This document shows, piece after piece, positions 16,282 through 24,382 of a stretch of 36,297 nucleotides of DNA. The translations under genes and the position numbers were made by a program. The notes beneath the pieces are model-generated. The model ran no database searches. It saw only the letters and a program-made list of their open reading frames with translations, and had not been told where the DNA came from. Source of the stretch: Erysipelothrix sp. (GTDB lineage: Bacteria; Bacillota_I; Bacilli_A; Erysipelotrichales; Erysipelotrichaceae); the NCBI GenBank assembly GCA_012512455.1, contig JAAZEF010000074.1:1-36297 (forward strand), in the 5' to 3' direction. Each line of letters starts with the position of its first letter. Position 1 is the first letter of the stretch.

Positions 16282-17061
16282 TTACTCTTCTTTTGCTTTA
16301 ACAACAGTCATATGAACACCGTTGTCACGATATAAACTCACCAAGTCTTGATTTTTTTGATTATCAGTTATAATTAAATCAATCTCTTGGATATGGGCAA
16401 AAGTACCTGTTGAGTTTTTACCAAGTTTGGTTGAATCTATTAAACCAATCACTTGTTTAGCTCTTGTTTTCATCAGTTTCTTAAGTTCAACTTCATAAAA
16501 GTTAAAGTCAGTAATACCTGAAGATAAATCAAAACCATGGCCTGAGAAAAACGCAATATCGACATTAATATTATTTAACATGTCTTGGGCCAATAAACCT
16601 TCTATGGAACCTGATTTTTTGGTCGCAATACCGCCGATTAAAATGACGGTAACTTCTGGCATTTCTTTAAGAGCTAAGAGGGTATAGATACCATTAGTGA
16701 CAACAGTTAGTCTCTGAAATTGTCCCAAGTGTTGAGCCAAAGTTAAACAAGTGGTTGAGGCATCCAATATGATAGCCATGCCATCTTTAATATAACTTAG
16801 AGCTTCTGATACAATGCCTTCTTTAAGTCCTGTACTTTCTTGTTCGCGAATATGAAAATTAGTATAGCTAAATGCTTTATTTTCTATTTGAATAGCACCA
16901 CCATAGATTTTCTTTAACAATTTTTTATCATGTAAATAAGTTAAGTCGTTTCGAACTGTGGCCGCAGAAACTTTAAGTTCATCAATGAGATCGTTGGTTT
17001 GAACACTGCCTTTTCTATCCAGTTGTTCAAGGATATATTCATGACGATGATTAGCTAACAT
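16282..17061 (-). CDS. DeoR/GlpR-family transcriptional regulator
   Basis: N-terminal HTH (RHEYILEQLDRKGSVQTNDLIDELKVSAATVRNDLTYLHDKKLLKKIYGGAI), DeoRC sensor; start at MLANHRH. Confidence 0.92.
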   Translation of the reverse strand: MLANHRHEYILEQLDRKGSVQTNDLIDELKVSAATVRNDLTYLHDKKLLKKIYGGAIQIENKAFSYTNFHIREQESTGLKEGIVSEALSYIKDGMAIILDASTTCLTLAQHLGQFQRLTVVTNGIYTLLALKEMPEVTVILIGGIATKKSGSIEGLLAQDMLNNINVDIAFFSGHGFDLSSGITDFNFYEVELKKLMKTRAKQVIGLIDSTKLGKNSTGTFAHIQEIDLIITDNQKNQDLVSLYRDNGVHMTVVKAKEE

Positions 17062-17082
17062 GTGTATCAACTCCTTTAGAAT

Positions 17083-17111
17083 ATTATACTTGAAACAACA
17101 ACAAACGACAA
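17083..17111 (-). promoter_or_regulatory. Promoter of deoR-family gene
   Basis: Minus strand TTGTCG (17111-17106), 17 nt spacer, TATAAT (17088-17083); -35 lies inside the candidate operator 17101-17121. Confidence 0.6.
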
Positions 17112-17121
17112 ACATAAACAA
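17101..17121 (+). promoter_or_regulatory. Candidate DeoR-family operator (shared 21-mer)
   Basis: ACAAACGACAAACATAAACAA, 18/21 identical to the glpK upstream copy at 11571-11591. Confidence 0.5.
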
Positions 17122-17196: not shown

Positions 17197-17970
17197 GTGC
17201 GTAAAAAAATAGTGGGTTCGAGTTGGAAGATGCATATTAATTCATTTGATGATGCTTCTTCATTAGCTCAAGGTATTGCCAGTAGGGTAGGACAACAAGA
17301 CGATATTGATTTATTTATCTTACCGTCATATCCTTTAATTCCAATGGTTAAGGCAATGTTTAATGGCACTGTGATTAAATATGGAGCACAAAATGTTGCT
17401 GTAGCGAAACAAGGTGCTCATACAGGTGAAGTACCCATAAATCTTTTGAAGGAACTTGGTTGTACATATGTAGAATTAAACCATGCTGAAAGACGTGCAA
17501 ATTATAATGAGAGCGACGAAATGACTGCCATTAAAGTTGGTCTTTGTGAAGAGTATGGACTAAAGCCTATCGTATGCATTGGTGAGACCGGTGAAGATAT
17601 AAAACTTAATAGATCATATCTTACATTAAGAACGCAAGTAATGTGGGCTTTATCGAATGCTTCAGAAGCATTTAGAAAAGAAATAATTCTTGCTTATGAA
17701 CCAGTGTGGGCAATTGGACAACAAGAAAGTGCCGACAAGACATATATTGAAAAAACACATCGAATGTTACGTGATATCGTAGCCTTAGATTTTGGTGAAG
17801 AACTTGCGAATCAAATTAGAATCATTTATGGCGGTTCAGTGAGTCCACAGACTGCTATGGAACTAAGTGATGTCAAAGATGTCGATGGCCTTTTTGTGGG
17901 ACGTTTTGGTCTACAACCTGAGAATTTTGAGAAAATTGTAAACAACTTTAAAGGAGAATCGAATGATTAG
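17197..17970 (+). CDS. Triosephosphate-isomerase-like protein (divergent; possible tetrulose-phosphate isomerase), GTG start
   Basis: KIVGSSWKMH, ELNHAERRANYNE, AYEPVWAIG, RIIYGGSV: TIM barrel with Lys/His/Glu catalytic residues but altered loops; RBS aagaggtg. Confidence 0.88.
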   Translation: MRKKIVGSSWKMHINSFDDASSLAQGIASRVGQQDDIDLFILPSYPLIPMVKAMFNGTVIKYGAQNVAVAKQGAHTGEVPINLLKELGCTYVELNHAERRANYNESDEMTAIKVGLCEEYGLKPIVCIGETGEDIKLNRSYLTLRTQVMWALSNASEAFRKEIILAYEPVWAIGQQESADKTYIEKTHRMLRDIVALDFGEELANQIRIIYGGSVSPQTAMELSDVKDVDGLFVGRFGLQPENFEKIVNNFKGESND

Positions 17971-18373
17971 TGCTATTTTAGTATCTCATAGTCCAAAAAT
18001 AACAGATGGACTTAAAGAGATGATTGAAGAGATGACAGGACGTCATGAAGGTATTAAGATATTATCAGTTGGTGGTACAGAAGATGGCCGTATTGGAACA
18101 GATCCAGTTAAGATTTTAGAAGTGATACAAGAAGAATCTACATCAGACTACATTTATCTTTATGGTGATTTAGGTAGCGGTATTCTTAGTATCGAAACAG
18201 CATTGGACTTAATTGAAGATGAGACTTTAAGAGAGAAAACTCATTATATTAGTGGTCCACTGGTTGAAGGTGCATTTGCGGGAATTATACAATGCCTAGT
18301 AGATCCGACACCAGAAGCTGTAAAAAGAGAGGTCTTAAGTAGCATTCATTTAATGCTAGAAGAAAATGATTAA
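17963..18373 (+). CDS. dhaM: DhaM-like PTS EIIA phosphotransferase subunit
   Basis: ILVSHSPKITDGLKEMI, YLYGDLGSGILSIETAL; position between TIM-like gene and dhaK. Confidence 0.85.
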   Translation: MISAILVSHSPKITDGLKEMIEEMTGRHEGIKILSVGGTEDGRIGTDPVKILEVIQEESTSDYIYLYGDLGSGILSIETALDLIEDETLREKTHYISGPLVEGAFAGIIQCLVDPTPEAVKREVLSSIHLMLEEND

Positions 18374-18398
18374 TCAATCATAGATAAAGGAGGAAAAT

Positions 18399-19391
18399 AT
18401 GAAAAGATTTATTAATGATGGCTATGATGTCGTCGAAGAAATGCTGGAGGGGTATGTACAAGCTCATCATGAAGATGTTCGTTTAAGTGAAGACAGCGAA
18501 CGTGTAGTAGTTAGCAAACACCTTAGCGAAACACCAAAAGTAGGAATCATTTTTGGTGGTGGTTCAGGACATGAACCTCTATTCTTAGGTTATGTTGGTA
18601 AAGGTGTTGCTGATGCGGCAGTTATCGGTAATGTGAATACATCTCCAGACCCAGTAACTTGCTATCAAGCAGTTAAAGAAGTTGACCAAGGTAAAGGTGT
18701 TCTTTATCTCTATGGTAACTACCAGGGTGACGTTATTAACTTTGACATGGGTGCTGAAATGGCTGAAGAAGAAGGCCACCGTGTTGAAACTGTCTTAATT
18801 ACTGACGATGTTTACTCTTCACCAGTAAGAGAAGAGCGTCGTGGTGTTGCAGGGGATGTCATTGTCTTAATGGCAGCTTGCGCAGCAGCTAATGCAGGTA
18901 AAGATTTAGACGAAGTTAAAGCAGCAGCAATTCATGCGAATGAAAGCACTTATTCATTAGGTGTTGCTCTATCATCATCCACACTTCCAGTAACTGGAGA
19001 AAAGATTTTTGAAATCGGTGAAGATGAGATGGAAGTTGGAATGGGAATCCATGGTGAACCTGGAATTATTCGTAAGAAAATTGAACCAGCTGACCAAGTT
19101 GTAGATGAAATTTTATCACACATCATCCCAGATATGAAACTTGAATCAGGAGAAGAAGTTGCAGTATTAATTAATGGATTAGGTGCCTTACCACTTATGG
19201 ACCAATACATTATGTATCGTCGTGTACACCAAGTTCTAACTGAAAAGGGAGTTAAAGTTGTTAAGTCAATGGTTGGTGATTATGCTACATCAATGGATAT
19301 GATTGGTGGTTCAATCACTTTAGTTAGACTTGATGCAACACTTAAAGAGCAACTAAATGCTCCATTTAATGCTCCATATTTAAAACAGTAA
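18399..19391 (+). CDS. dhaK: Dihydroxyacetone kinase subunit DhaK-like
   Basis: IFGGGSGHEPLFLGYVGKGVADAAVIGNVNTSPDP, NYQGDVINFDMGAEMA, GMGIHGEPGI (substrate-binding His). Confidence 0.92.
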   Translation: MKRFINDGYDVVEEMLEGYVQAHHEDVRLSEDSERVVVSKHLSETPKVGIIFGGGSGHEPLFLGYVGKGVADAAVIGNVNTSPDPVTCYQAVKEVDQGKGVLYLYGNYQGDVINFDMGAEMAEEEGHRVETVLITDDVYSSPVREERRGVAGDVIVLMAACAAANAGKDLDEVKAAAIHANESTYSLGVALSSSTLPVTGEKIFEIGEDEMEVGMGIHGEPGIIRKKIEPADQVVDEILSHIIPDMKLESGEEVAVLINGLGALPLMDQYIMYRRVHQVLTEKGVKVVKSMVGDYATSMDMIGGSITLVRLDATLKEQLNAPFNAPYLKQ

Positions 19392-19411
19392 GTTAGAAGG
19401 GAAGAACATTC

Positions 19412-20056
19412 ATGCTAATGTTGGATAAACAATTTTTTCTCGATAGTCTTAGAGATATGGCACAGTTGGCTGAAGAGCAACGTAATCATTGGACGAAGCT
19501 TGACTCAGAAATTGGCGATGGTGACCACGGAATTAACTTAAGTATTGGTTTTCGCGCTGTTACTAAACAACTCGATGCACTAGATATTGAAAGTACAGAT
19601 ATTGCGGGTCTATATAAGAAAGTCGGTATGACACTACTGTCTAAAGTAGGAGGTGCCTCTGGTCCTCTCTATGGTTCATTCTTTATGAAAGCCGGCACAA
19701 ATATTGCTGGTCTTCATGAAATTAATTTCAGACAGTTTTGTGAAATGATTCAAGAAGGAGTCGATGCTATTGTCTTTCGTGGTAAAGCACAAATTGGCGA
19801 TAAGACAATGCTTGATGCATTCTTACCAGGACTTGAAGTCCTTTTCCAAAGTGATTTAGAGAACGAACCAGTGGCTGCTTTTGAAGCTTTCGTTGCTCGA
19901 ATGAAACAAGGCTCAGATGAGACAATTCCTCTGATTTGTAAAAAAGGTCGAGCTATGAGACTCGGTGAAAGAGCAATAGGCCATCGTGATCCAGGCTCTG
20001 AATCAGCATGGATGTTTATGAATGTCTATTTAGAACAGCTTAAAAAAAGATTTTAG
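19412..20056 (+). CDS. dhaL: Dihydroxyacetone kinase subunit DhaL-like
   Basis: LDSEIGDGDHGINLSIGF nucleotide/Mg motif, KVGGASGPLYGSFFMKAG. Confidence 0.92.
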   Translation: MLMLDKQFFLDSLRDMAQLAEEQRNHWTKLDSEIGDGDHGINLSIGFRAVTKQLDALDIESTDIAGLYKKVGMTLLSKVGGASGPLYGSFFMKAGTNIAGLHEINFRQFCEMIQEGVDAIVFRGKAQIGDKTMLDAFLPGLEVLFQSDLENEPVAAFEAFVARMKQGSDETIPLICKKGRAMRLGERAIGHRDPGSESAWMFMNVYLEQLKKRF

Positions 20057-20076
20057 ATTTTGAAAGGATTGATATT

Positions 20077-20511
20077 ATGAAGATTGCATTTGGATGTGAT
20101 CCAAACGCACAAGAGATGAAAAAAGCTCTTATGGATTTGGTAGAATCATTAGGACATGAAGTTAAAGACTTCGGTTCAGAAGATCCTATATACGCCAACA
20201 CAGCTATCGATGTTGCCAATGCCGTTGTCTCTAAAGAGTACGATCGCGGTATTGTCGTTTGTGGTACAGGAATAGGTGTATCAATTTCAGCGAACAAGGT
20301 AAAAGGTGCTTATTGTGCCCTAGTAACTGATGTTTATCAAGCTCAACGAGCCACCTTAAGCAATAATGCCAATATGATAGCATTAGGGGCTCAAGTCACA
20401 GGAATTCAAAGTGCTGAATGCCTGGTGGAAGAATATTTATCTCACACTTTTGATCCAGAAAGCCGTTCTAAAGTGAAGGTAGACCGTATCTCAGAATACG
20501 AAAAAGAATAA
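20077..20511 (+). CDS. RpiB/LacAB-family sugar-phosphate isomerase, divergent active site
   Basis: GIVVCGTGIGVSISANKVKGAYCALVTDVYQA; conserved Cys kept, but DH->DP and HNDAN->SNNAN. Confidence 0.9.
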   Translation: MKIAFGCDPNAQEMKKALMDLVESLGHEVKDFGSEDPIYANTAIDVANAVVSKEYDRGIVVCGTGIGVSISANKVKGAYCALVTDVYQAQRATLSNNANMIALGAQVTGIQSAECLVEEYLSHTFDPESRSKVKVDRISEYEKE

Positions 20512-20517
20512 CATATA

Positions 20518-20545
20518 AGAGGTCACAAACTGTGACCTCTTTTTA
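20518..20545. terminator. Bidirectional intrinsic terminator
   Basis: agaggtcaca-aac-tgtgacctct perfect 10-bp stem followed by tttt. Confidence 0.88.
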
Positions 20546-23110
20546 TATCCATTCATTGTATTTAGAAATATAAACTGTTTTAATCAATTGGACAGACACT
20601 GCATATAATCCACAAAGGATCAATAACCAAATCATAAAGTGCCAAGGTAATGTAGCCATATCCAAACCAATAGCCAGTTGGCTAAATCCAATAGTAATCG
20701 TCACAATAACAACTAGAGAAGTTGAGATTAATAAAGGTAAAGAGGGAAGACTTTCTATGAATGGTTTTTTTGCTGTACGAATCATATAAATGATGAGAAC
20801 TTGAGAAATAGTCCCAAAGACAAACCATCCTGCCCAAAAGTAGGGTGCTTTATCAAAGCCCATGACCCACCACAAAATACCAAAACATAAAATATCAAAG
20901 ATTGAACTTAAAGGACCCATGATAAACATAAAACGTTCAATGGAACGAGGTTGCCATTTCTGAGGAACTTTTAGATATTGCTCATCAACATGATCTAAAG
21001 GAATCCCTAATTGAGAAAAGTCATTTAATAAGTTTTGGGTTAACAATTGAACAGGTAACATTGGTAAGAATGGTAAGAAAAGACTAGCGATAATTACTGA
21101 AAACATATTGCCAAAATTACCACTCACGGCCATCTTGATATATTTCATCATGTTACCAAAGGTTTTACGTCCTTCTAAAACACCTTCTTCTAACACCATC
21201 AAATCCTTCTCTAATAATATAATATCAGCACTTTCTTTCGCAATATCGACCGCACTATCCACAGAGATACCAACATCTGCTTGCTTAAGGGGAGGGGCAT
21301 CATTTATTCCATCTCCCATATAACCTACGGTATGACCTGCATTCTGAAAGGCTTTGACTACTCTTTGTTTTTGAAGAGGAGACAGTTTCGCAAATAAATC
21401 AGATGTATTAATAGCTTCATTTAATTCTTGATCACTCATTTTCTCAACATCACTACCAATAATTACAGTCGTGGTATCGATACCGACTTTCTTACACACA
21501 TTGATAGCAACACCTTCAGCATCACCAGTGAGCACTACTGTTCTAACACCATGCTCCTTTAGAGCACTGATAGCACTTTCTGCGCTATCTTTAGGTGGAT
21601 CTAAGAAAGCAACAAAGCCAATAAGTACCATATCTGATTCATCTTTTTCGCTAAATGTATGAATATCAGGGACTTCATTTTTTTGAGCCACACCTAACAT
21701 TCTTAAGCCTTGAGCACTTTGTTCTTCATACGTTTTAAGTGCCAATGCTTTAGTTTGTTCATCAAGAGGTAATACTTGTCCATCTAATTCGATAAATGAA
21801 GAACTTTCTAACATCTCTTCAACAGCACCTTTAGTTATTAGTTGACGTTTACCTTGATTATCACTTAAGACCACACTCATTTTACGTCGACTAAAATCAA
21901 AAGGAATTTCATCAATACGAGAATAGTTTGTTAATATATTTTGTAGATTATATTTTTGTGCACGATTAATAATTGCGACATCGATTAAGTTTTTGAGACC
22001 TGTTTGAAAATAACTATTTAAATACGCATGACGTAATACTCTTTTATCATCTTCACCATGAACATTCATGTAGCGTTCTAAGACAATCTCATCTTGAGTC
22101 AAAGTACCAGTTTTATCAGTACAAAGAATATCCATTTCACCAAAAGTTTGAATGGAACCTAAATTTCGAACAATCACTTTATGTTTCGACATGGCCATAG
22201 CACCTTTAGCTAAAGTAGAAGTCATAATAACTGGTAACATCTCAGGGGTTAAACCTACCGCGATCGATAATGAAAACAATAAGGCACTAAACCAATCATT
22301 TTTAGCGATACCATTAATTACAAAAACTATCGGAATCATGATTAACATGACTCTTATCATCAGTTTACTGACAGCATTAACTCCTCTTTCAAAGCTAGTT
22401 TTCTTATCTTCACTAGCCAATGATTGAGCCATTGAACCAAAATAAGTATTATCACCTGTCGCGATAACAATTGCTTTAGCGCTACCACTCACAATATTGG
22501 TTCCCATAAAGCCTAAAAAGTTATTATCAGTCAATGATTCACTTAAGGGATTGCGTATGTCACTAAACTTTTCTACCGGTTGAGATTCTCCCGTTAAAGC
22601 AGATTGCGACACAAAGGTATCTTTAGTGAAAATAAAACGCACATCCGCAGGTATCATATCACCCGCTGATAAATGGATGACATCTCCTAGTACTATCTCC
22701 TCAAAATCAATCGCCATCAAAGTATTATCTCTGTACACATGAGCATCACTAGAAATTAATTGTGTCAATTTACTACTCTCTTGATAAGCGCGCTCACTTT
22801 GATAGAATGCGACAGCACTTGATAAAATCACTAAACTAACAATGATGCTCACCGTTAAATAATCTGGTTTGCTTGTCAAGAAAATATCAGTCATAGCAGT
22901 GACTAGCGCAACGACTAATAAAATAACATTAAAAGGATTAATGGTAGCTTCTATTAATCTTTGGAATGATGTTTGAGGTTTTTTATTACTTAAGATATTA
23001 GGTCCATTTTCTGCTAAGCGATGTTGTGCTTCTTTAGTGCTTAGTCCTTGTTCTGTTGAATTTAAGTATGAAAATAGAGATTCTAAAGTGTAATTTATTA
23101 TTGTTTTCAT
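20543..23110 (-). CDS. mgtA: Magnesium-translocating P-type ATPase (MgtA/MgtB type)
   Basis: CTDKTGTLTQDEIVLERY, GDGINDAPPLKQADVGISVDSAVDIAKESADIILLEKDL, NFGNMFSV: type IIIB P-ATPase. Confidence 0.92.
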   Translation of the reverse strand: MKTIINYTLESLFSYLNSTEQGLSTKEAQHRLAENGPNILSNKKPQTSFQRLIEATINPFNVILLVVALVTAMTDIFLTSKPDYLTVSIIVSLVILSSAVAFYQSERAYQESSKLTQLISSDAHVYRDNTLMAIDFEEIVLGDVIHLSAGDMIPADVRFIFTKDTFVSQSALTGESQPVEKFSDIRNPLSESLTDNNFLGFMGTNIVSGSAKAIVIATGDNTYFGSMAQSLASEDKKTSFERGVNAVSKLMIRVMLIMIPIVFVINGIAKNDWFSALLFSLSIAVGLTPEMLPVIMTSTLAKGAMAMSKHKVIVRNLGSIQTFGEMDILCTDKTGTLTQDEIVLERYMNVHGEDDKRVLRHAYLNSYFQTGLKNLIDVAIINRAQKYNLQNILTNYSRIDEIPFDFSRRKMSVVLSDNQGKRQLITKGAVEEMLESSSFIELDGQVLPLDEQTKALALKTYEEQSAQGLRMLGVAQKNEVPDIHTFSEKDESDMVLIGFVAFLDPPKDSAESAISALKEHGVRTVVLTGDAEGVAINVCKKVGIDTTTVIIGSDVEKMSDQELNEAINTSDLFAKLSPLQKQRVVKAFQNAGHTVGYMGDGINDAPPLKQADVGISVDSAVDIAKESADIILLEKDLMVLEEGVLEGRKTFGNMMKYIKMAVSGNFGNMFSVIIASLFLPFLPMLPVQLLTQNLLNDFSQLGIPLDHVDEQYLKVPQKWQPRSIERFMFIMGPLSSIFDILCFGILWWVMGFDKAPYFWAGWFVFGTISQVLIIYMIRTAKKPFIESLPSLPLLISTSLVVIVTITIGFSQLAIGLDMATLPWHFMIWLLILCGLYAVSVQLIKTVYISKYNEWI

Positions 23111-23150
23111 CTGGTTTCCTTCTTTCTAAGAGAACACCAGTCAATGCATT

Positions 23151-23173
23151 AAAAAACCGCCCAAAGGACGGTT
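23151..23173 (-). terminator. Intrinsic terminator (attenuator) between leader ORF and mgtA
   Basis: Minus strand AACCGTCC-TTT-GGGCGGTT (8 bp, one G:U) plus TTTT; about 40 nt upstream of mgtA ATG. Confidence 0.8.
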
Positions 23174-23181
23174 GTCTTCTT

Positions 23182-23271
23182 TTAGTTAAATAAAAGGTGA
23201 CCCGATGCAATGGCAAGTGTAAATCTGATTTGTTTATTATCTAAGTTTAATCTTCGAGGACTATCTTCCAT
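23182..23271 (-). CDS. mgtA leader peptide, 29 aa: MEDSPRRLNLDNKQIRFTLAIASGHLLFN
   Basis: ATG 8 nt after a GAAAGGA Shine-Dalgarno, intact short ORF ending TAA just upstream of the attenuator; absent from the ORF track because it is under 60 aa. Confidence 0.7.
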   Translation of the reverse strand: MEDSPRRLNLDNKQIRFTLAIASGHLLFN

Positions 23272-23320
23272 CGTGTCACATCCTTTCATAAGCTAATACA
23301 TTATTACATAAAACTAGTCG

Positions 23321-24382
23321 TTATACAATAATTGGCTTCCCAATTTCCTTTGACATTAAGTTAGGAGCTGTTGATAATAAGGAATAAATCAATGTTGCTT
23401 TCAATTCATTTTCTCTAACAACTTCTGGAAGATCTTTAAATTGAGTAACTTTTGAAGGTAATCTTTTTAAGTAAGATGTAGCTTCCTTTCTAAAACCTAA
23501 AATTCGAATAAAGTCTAAATCATGTAAATTTCGTGATTGGTGATTTAAAACAATCGACAAGCAAGTTCTTTGAATACGTGATTGGGAATATCTCTTTGAA
23601 ACACAAGCTTGAATAAATTCATCATAATTATCTATATATTTACCTTTTTCAATAAAGAGATTTTCAATTCCTTCACTGACTAACAAATTATTCTGTAATT
23701 CACTCTTACTAGCAGATAATAAGCGATAACGTAAATGAGGATAGATGGCCTCATCAAAAACGAAATGAGTTAAATCGACCATCGCTTGATTAGAATATTG
23801 ATTATTTTTTACACCATGTCGAATCGCACTCGCAGACAAAATAGGTTGAGATAAATCTTTGTCATGATATTGATTAGTACGCAAAATACATTGAGTTTGA
23901 ATATTGTAAGTATTGGCAGCTTTAATATAAGAAACTCCCAAAATGTCATTAGGTGAAAGGTTATGATGATTAGTCGCATGTGCAAAAGATTCTCCTTCAC
24001 TAATACGTTGCTCAAATAACTTTTGATTAAAAGGTTCTTGTGCTATTTGTCTTAAAGTATTAATATCATTGGTCTCAGAACCAAAGACAATGGTATCTAC
24101 TTGTGCCAAATGAAGTAATTTAACAGCACTCTGGGCAAACACGCTTGCAGATTGAGTCGCATAAATAGTAGGTAATTCGATGACGACATCGACATGATGT
24201 TCTAAAGCCTTTTTTGTCCTTTCAAACTTGTCAACACACGCCACACTTCCGCGTTGGGTAAAGTTAGGACTCATGACCGCCACTAAAATATCACACTGTG
24301 TTAATTGGCGTGTTTGTTGAATATGATGGATATGACCAAGATGGAGTGGATTGTATTCCACGATAATACCTGTTATTTTCAT
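23321..24382 (-). CDS. tmcAL: tRNA(Met) cytidine acetate ligase (YlbM family)
   Basis: MKITGIIVEYNPLHLGHIHHIQQTR, AVMSPNFTQRGSVACVDKFERTKKAL, GVDVVIELP-like (HVDVVIELPTIYATQSASVFAQSAV). Confidence 0.93.
   Translation of the reverse strand: MKITGIIVEYNPLHLGHIHHIQQTRQLTQCDILVAVMSPNFTQRGSVACVDKFERTKKALEHHVDVVIELPTIYATQSASVFAQSAVKLLHLAQVDTIVFGSETNDINTLRQIAQEPFNQKLFEQRISEGESFAHATNHHNLSPNDILGVSYIKAANTYNIQTQCILRTNQYHDKDLSQPILSASAIRHGVKNNQYSNQAMVDLTHFVFDEAIYPHLRYRLLSASKSELQNNLLVSEGIENLFIEKGKYIDNYDEFIQACVSKRYSQSRIQRTCLSIVLNHQSRNLHDLDFIRILGFRKEATSYLKRLPSKVTQFKDLPEVVRENELKATLIYSLLSTAPNLMSKEIGKPIIV

Follow-up and report, generated by a model that had tools for sequence, protein, structure and literature searches.

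The mgtA gene of Erysipelothrix sp. (GenBank assembly GCA_012512455.1, contig JAAZEF010000074.1) lies on the minus strand of a 36,297-nucleotide stretch of DNA that we analysed as a whole and call the window. Its product scores 1052 bits against TIGR01524, for which the cut-off is 611, and is thus a true Mg2+ P-type ATPase. Upstream lies tmcAL (HIGH_NTase1, PF05636; 23321-24382), and in the interval between the two genes, 49 nt from tmcAL, a 29-codon minus-strand ORF is followed by an intrinsic terminator. Both had been claimed in an earlier note on this DNA, and we confirmed their coordinates and translation, the single correction being that the ORF stop and the terminator stem are separated by 8 nt instead of 9. 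A hairpin that sequesters the Shine-Dalgarno (SD) sequence of mgtA had been missed there. The features of the region are as follows, with the basis of each call in brackets.

23300-23328, minus strand: candidate promoter, TTGTAT-N17-AATAAT with TG before the -10 (read from the sequence)
23281-23286, minus strand: SD sequence AAAGGA of the leader ORF, 9 nt before its ATG (read from the sequence)
23269-23289, minus strand: RNA arm 1, the SD/start region, pairing with arm 2 (fold and duplex)
23271 (ATG) to 23182 (TAA), minus strand: leader ORF, 29 codons, MEDSPRRLNLDNKQIRFTLAIASGHLLFN (read from the sequence, leader-profile rank)
23190-23207, minus strand: RNA arm 2, CAUCGGGUCACCUUUUAU, the 3' end of the ORF (fold and duplex)
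23151-23173, minus strand: intrinsic terminator, AACCGTCC-TTT-GGGCGGTT, an 8-bp stem (23173-23155) and a T-tract (terminator scan, near-identical stem-loop in the relatives L042-44)
23111-23140, minus strand: hairpin CUGGU...ACCAG over the mgtA SD (GAAGGA, 23122-23117) (folding, equivalent hairpin in L042-44)
20543-23110, minus strand: mgtA, Mg2+-importing P3B-type ATPase, 855 aa (TIGR01524)

The likely start of the ORF is 23271, since another ATG in the same frame, six codons earlier (23289, MKGCDT-, giving 35 aa), has no SD and was rejected. Among the 618 ATG ORFs of 10-50 codons in the window, this one ranks first against a profile of 46 leaders from which the window and L042-44 had been left out. 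The -10 of the candidate promoter ends 28 nt ahead of the leader ATG, the same spacing as in L042 and L044; the match itself is strong in those two and weak in the window (best score 8.5/12), where read-through from tmcAL into the leader is also possible. Promoters are not generally enriched across all leaders (15 of 55 score at least 9/12, with a median shuffle fraction of 0.48 in a simple scan). The weak promoter, the short distance to tmcAL and the position of the terminator downstream of that gene would all fit a plainer account, in which the terminator merely ends the tmcAL transcript, mgtA has a promoter of its own and the ORF is a chance frame. We consider this quite unlikely. Indeed, L042-44 have a leader and a terminator of the same kind with no tmcAL upstream, while the tmcAL of relatives lies away from mgtA and has no such ORF downstream, so that a tmcAL-linked origin of the leader was rejected: the leader travels with mgtA, not with tmcAL. 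A chance frame also sits poorly with the first rank in the profile search, and no promoter-like site was found between the terminator and mgtA. Nothing else in 22900-23600 resembles a terminator (shuffles give a mean of 0.2).

An exact search for the peptide and its DNA in the genomes of 98 relatives gave no convincing match beyond self because the peptide diverges quickly, and leaders were hence compared by their position upstream of mgtA, using homologues sampled from Erysipelotrichia, other Bacilli, Clostridia and some Mollicutes. A single rule was applied throughout, requiring an ATG start, an SD no shorter than 5 nt, a length of 10-50 codons and a position within 250 nt; by this rule, a candidate leader ORF is present in 55 of 108 dereplicated mgtA-upstream regions and in 3 of 100 controls, which were upstream regions of other genes at the same loci. 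SD-preceded short ORFs starting with M-[D/E] were found in 43/108 regions versus 0/100 controls (p = 4e-15, an optimistic value because the regions are phylogenetically non-independent and the pattern was noticed before counting, although the contrast is not subtle). The window peptide begins MEDSPRR, with acidic residues and a Pro at its N terminus, and comparable starts are MEDSPHCKY (L013), MEDSQSRYYK (L090), MEEPQSRFIK (L091), MEDPLSRK (L113), MEDPQSKCKR (L080, Tetragenococcus), MEYPSPQM (Enterococcus), MDPSSRRRR (Faecalibacterium), MDSDPRSL and MDGDPRSL (L042-44), MELQSGERS (Mollicutes that read TGA as Trp) and MDTGSSSGP (Acholeplasmatales, behind an M-box). In an average taken across 42 dereplicated leaders, 76% carry an acidic residue at position 2, Ser, Thr and Gly abound at positions 4-6, and the sequence becomes basic through positions 6-11; in broad terms, an acidic start gives way to Ser/Thr/Gly/Pro and then to Arg/Lys. 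At codons 2-11, pN was below pS in 10/10 groups of related leaders (two of which share one member), clearly so in some groups (0.03 vs 0.20, 0.02 vs 0.23, 0.20 vs 0.56) and slightly in others (0.15 vs 0.18). These values describe groups of related leaders; for the window peptide itself, no close relative was found in the 98 genomes, and the sister species G001 yielded no match for mgtA. What is conserved near mgtA is therefore a type of ORF, as the counts and the pN/pS values indicate, and not the exact peptide. Several close mgtA homologues (L014, L088, L089, L092) have no recognisable leader ORF.

The ORF could also be incidental to a metal-sensing riboswitch, new or of a degenerate M-box type. 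In Firmicutes, the M-box (ykoK leader, RF00380) puts Mg2+ transport genes under the control of Mg2+, and the window leader folds somewhat better than its shuffles (z -1.45). An M-box followed by an acidic-start leader ORF is found before mgtA in L013, L026/L046, L063, L081, L082 and L084, a stacking that suggests two independent Mg2+ checks in series. For the window, this explanation is very unlikely. The suspicion that there is no obvious M-box was borne out: the covariance model found none in the leader nor in the whole 1.37-Mb draft genome, which encodes an MgtE, and none of the 4227 Rfam families, the enterobacterial Mg2+ sensor included, matched the window at curated cut-offs, permissive thresholds yielding only chance-level matches. 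Moreover, conservation across the class is concentrated in the N-terminal codons, and even L042-44 diverge from the window in the middle of the RNA, markedly so in the middle of the ORF. M. tuberculosis Rv1805A offers a partial parallel, being a conserved small ORF behind an M-box that is conserved mainly at its N-terminus (PMC12810186), but it differs from our leader in that it does not precede mgtA, is restricted to mycobacteria and is associated with Rho-dependent termination.

Pairing between the start and the end of the ORF is the structural element that recurs among the leaders. In the window, arm 1 pairs with arm 2 with a dG of -20.2, and 5 of 200 shuffles do as well. Across 53 leaders the pairing beats shuffles (mean z -2.65, p = 1.8e-10), and the SD/start region pairs better with the 3' end of its own ORF than with those of other leaders (median rank 0.07). 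L042-44, whose MgtA is 66% identical to that of the window, have several features in common with it: besides the 28-nt distance from -10 to ATG, these are the sequence GAAAGGA.GTGA.AC.ATGGA, a CUGG...CCAG hairpin that covers the mgtA SD, and CCGTCCTTTGGG as the core of the terminator. By eye, the base preceding the ATG forms a G-C pair in the window and an A-U pair in L042. Within L042-44, Asp2 (GAC/GAT) and Leu30 (TTG/TTA) form a compensatory pair in which both changes are synonymous; it is real, although a set of three sequences is too small to give significance.

The transcription attenuation proposed in the earlier note found support in the relatives, where ribosome-dependent antiterminators occur, and not in the window itself. 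Folding with a ribosome placed at successive codons shows L091 and L123 to be textbook attenuators, in which the terminator prevails when the RNA is free or the ribosome is late in the ORF and drops to a probability of 0.02-0.06 when the ribosome sits within codons 1-5; L090 and L042-44, with partial antiterminators, fall in between. In the window, arm 2 has an alternative partner at 23176-23169, a weak antiterminator that ties up just three bases of the terminator stem. It is unsupported both by duplex energy (z -0.43) and by ribosome-position folding, an equilibrium calculation in which the terminator wins at every position with a probability of about 0.93-0.98. We thus infer the switch in the window RNA from its relatives. 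The hairpin at 23111-23140 may act as a second gate behind the terminator by hiding the mgtA SD. A different arrangement is seen in L018, L019, L020, L021 and L115, whose leader ORFs read M...DYHSR and contain a stretch resembling GGCGGUC that can pair next to the mgtA SD (in L018-L021, GGCGGUC with GACCGCC; duplex z -3 to -5 for L019-L021), and in these it seems likely that the output is translational, through SD sequestration, and not transcriptional.

A leader ORF, competing helices and a terminator are also the anatomy of an amino-acid attenuator of the trp/his type, to which the folds of L091 and L123 conform, so that the leader might sense charged tRNA (Arg or Pro) or the general speed of translation instead of Mg2+. 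We regard this as unlikely, given that the peptides contain no run of a single amino acid, that the constant of the class is the early acidic residues while Pro/Ser/Gly and Arg/Lys vary, and that the target examined was always a Mg2+ pump. These properties point to MgtL, the leader peptide of mgtA in E. coli and Salmonella (b4702). Like the window peptide, MgtL is encoded by a short SD-led ORF immediately upstream of mgtA, and both peptides have acidic residues and a Pro near the start, with Arg and Leu further on (ME..P...RRL.L). In E. coli too, the SD/start region is paired with the 3' end of the ORF (dG -17.3), and the acid-to-base order along the peptide that we observe class-wide is also found in E. 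coli MgtL (read from NC_000913.3). In E. coli, low Mg2+ favours dissociation of the ribosome on the EPDP motif of MgtL, upon which the mRNA fold changes and mgtA is transcribed, in a response that involves EttA and acidic residues (PMC11282234), and the mgtL SD is sequestered in stem A (PMC11552253). The two systems differ in that MgtL has 17 codons and the window peptide 29, in that the window is Gram-positive, and in what follows the ORF, a Rho-dependent site for MgtL versus an intrinsic terminator and an SD-hiding hairpin, the presumed output, in the window. An alignment of the two peptides (ME..P/RRL.L) is equalled by 145 of 5000 shuffles, which is suggestive but too weak to claim common descent; the kinship that we propose is one of mode of action.

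We therefore consider it likely that the window ORF encodes an MgtL-like leader peptide through which mgtA is controlled in cis in response to Mg2+. Our confidence in this reading as a whole is good though well short of certainty, being higher for the leader peptide alone and lower for the Mg2+ mechanism: we infer that the ORF is translated, that Mg2+ is the signal and is sensed through destabilisation of the ribosome, and that the window RNA switches. In this scenario, a short leader mRNA would begin just upstream of the ORF. With plentiful Mg2+, the ORF would be translated to its end, the terminator would fold and mgtA would be off. When Mg2+ is scarce, ribosomes would slow down or fall off on the early acidic and Pro codons (Glu-Asp-Ser-Pro-Arg-Arg), leaving arm 1 occupied and arm 2 free, and the latter could then disturb either the terminator or the hairpin that covers the mgtA SD, so that mgtA would be made. 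Of the MgtL-type sensor that the earlier note had thought possibly analogous or independently evolved, the leader ORF before mgtA and its acidic/Pro start stand, joined by the stem A-like pairing, with Mg2+ as the presumed signal; the window leader is no isolated invention, being one member of an apparently undescribed class that looks common in Gram-positive bacteria.

Short translation-sensitive ORFs likewise precede other Mg2+-transport genes, such as those ahead of Salmonella mgtCBR, MgtQ among them, and CorL of corA (PMC8092293, PMC3641672, PMC11552253), but these differ from the window in their genes, their Gram-negative hosts and their RNA switches. A literature search found no Gram-positive counterpart of MgtL, in a coverage that largely lacked subscription journals and in which absence is no proof. 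On balance, with a little less assurance than for the window ORF, we favour the view that MgtL-like Mg2+-sensing leaders are a general and unreported control of mgtA across Gram-positives, in which ribosomes would become unstable on early acidic residues when Mg2+ is low, an event that an intrinsic terminator or an SD-sequestering hairpin would read, sometimes behind an M-box. If this is true, Mg2+ sensing through ribosome instability on an acidic nascent chain would be an old or repeatedly evolved device, shared by Gram-negative and Gram-positive bacteria and feeding into different RNA outputs. The class would then provide dozens of natural variants (MEDSP, MEDPQS, MEYPSPQ, MDPSSRRRR, DDDPLG) for testing ribosome-destabilising N-termini in Gram-positives, and would raise the question of why some bacteria stack the peptide behind an M-box.

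Some leaders depart from the simple plan. L026/L046 (Traorella) have two tandem SD-led short ORFs before mgtA, MDGYQWCKWLKRRW and MDAENGDQCKS, and in L022, L024, L118, L120 and L121 a second conserved acidic-Pro motif, DDDPLG, lies in the middle of the peptide with variable flanking residues. Elsewhere in the window, positions 17197-20511 hold genes for a triosephosphate isomerase (the family call was tested), proteins resembling dihydroxyacetone kinase subunits and a putative protein of the ribose-5-phosphate isomerase type; ahead of this cluster, a gene resembling a regulator (16282-17121) runs divergently.
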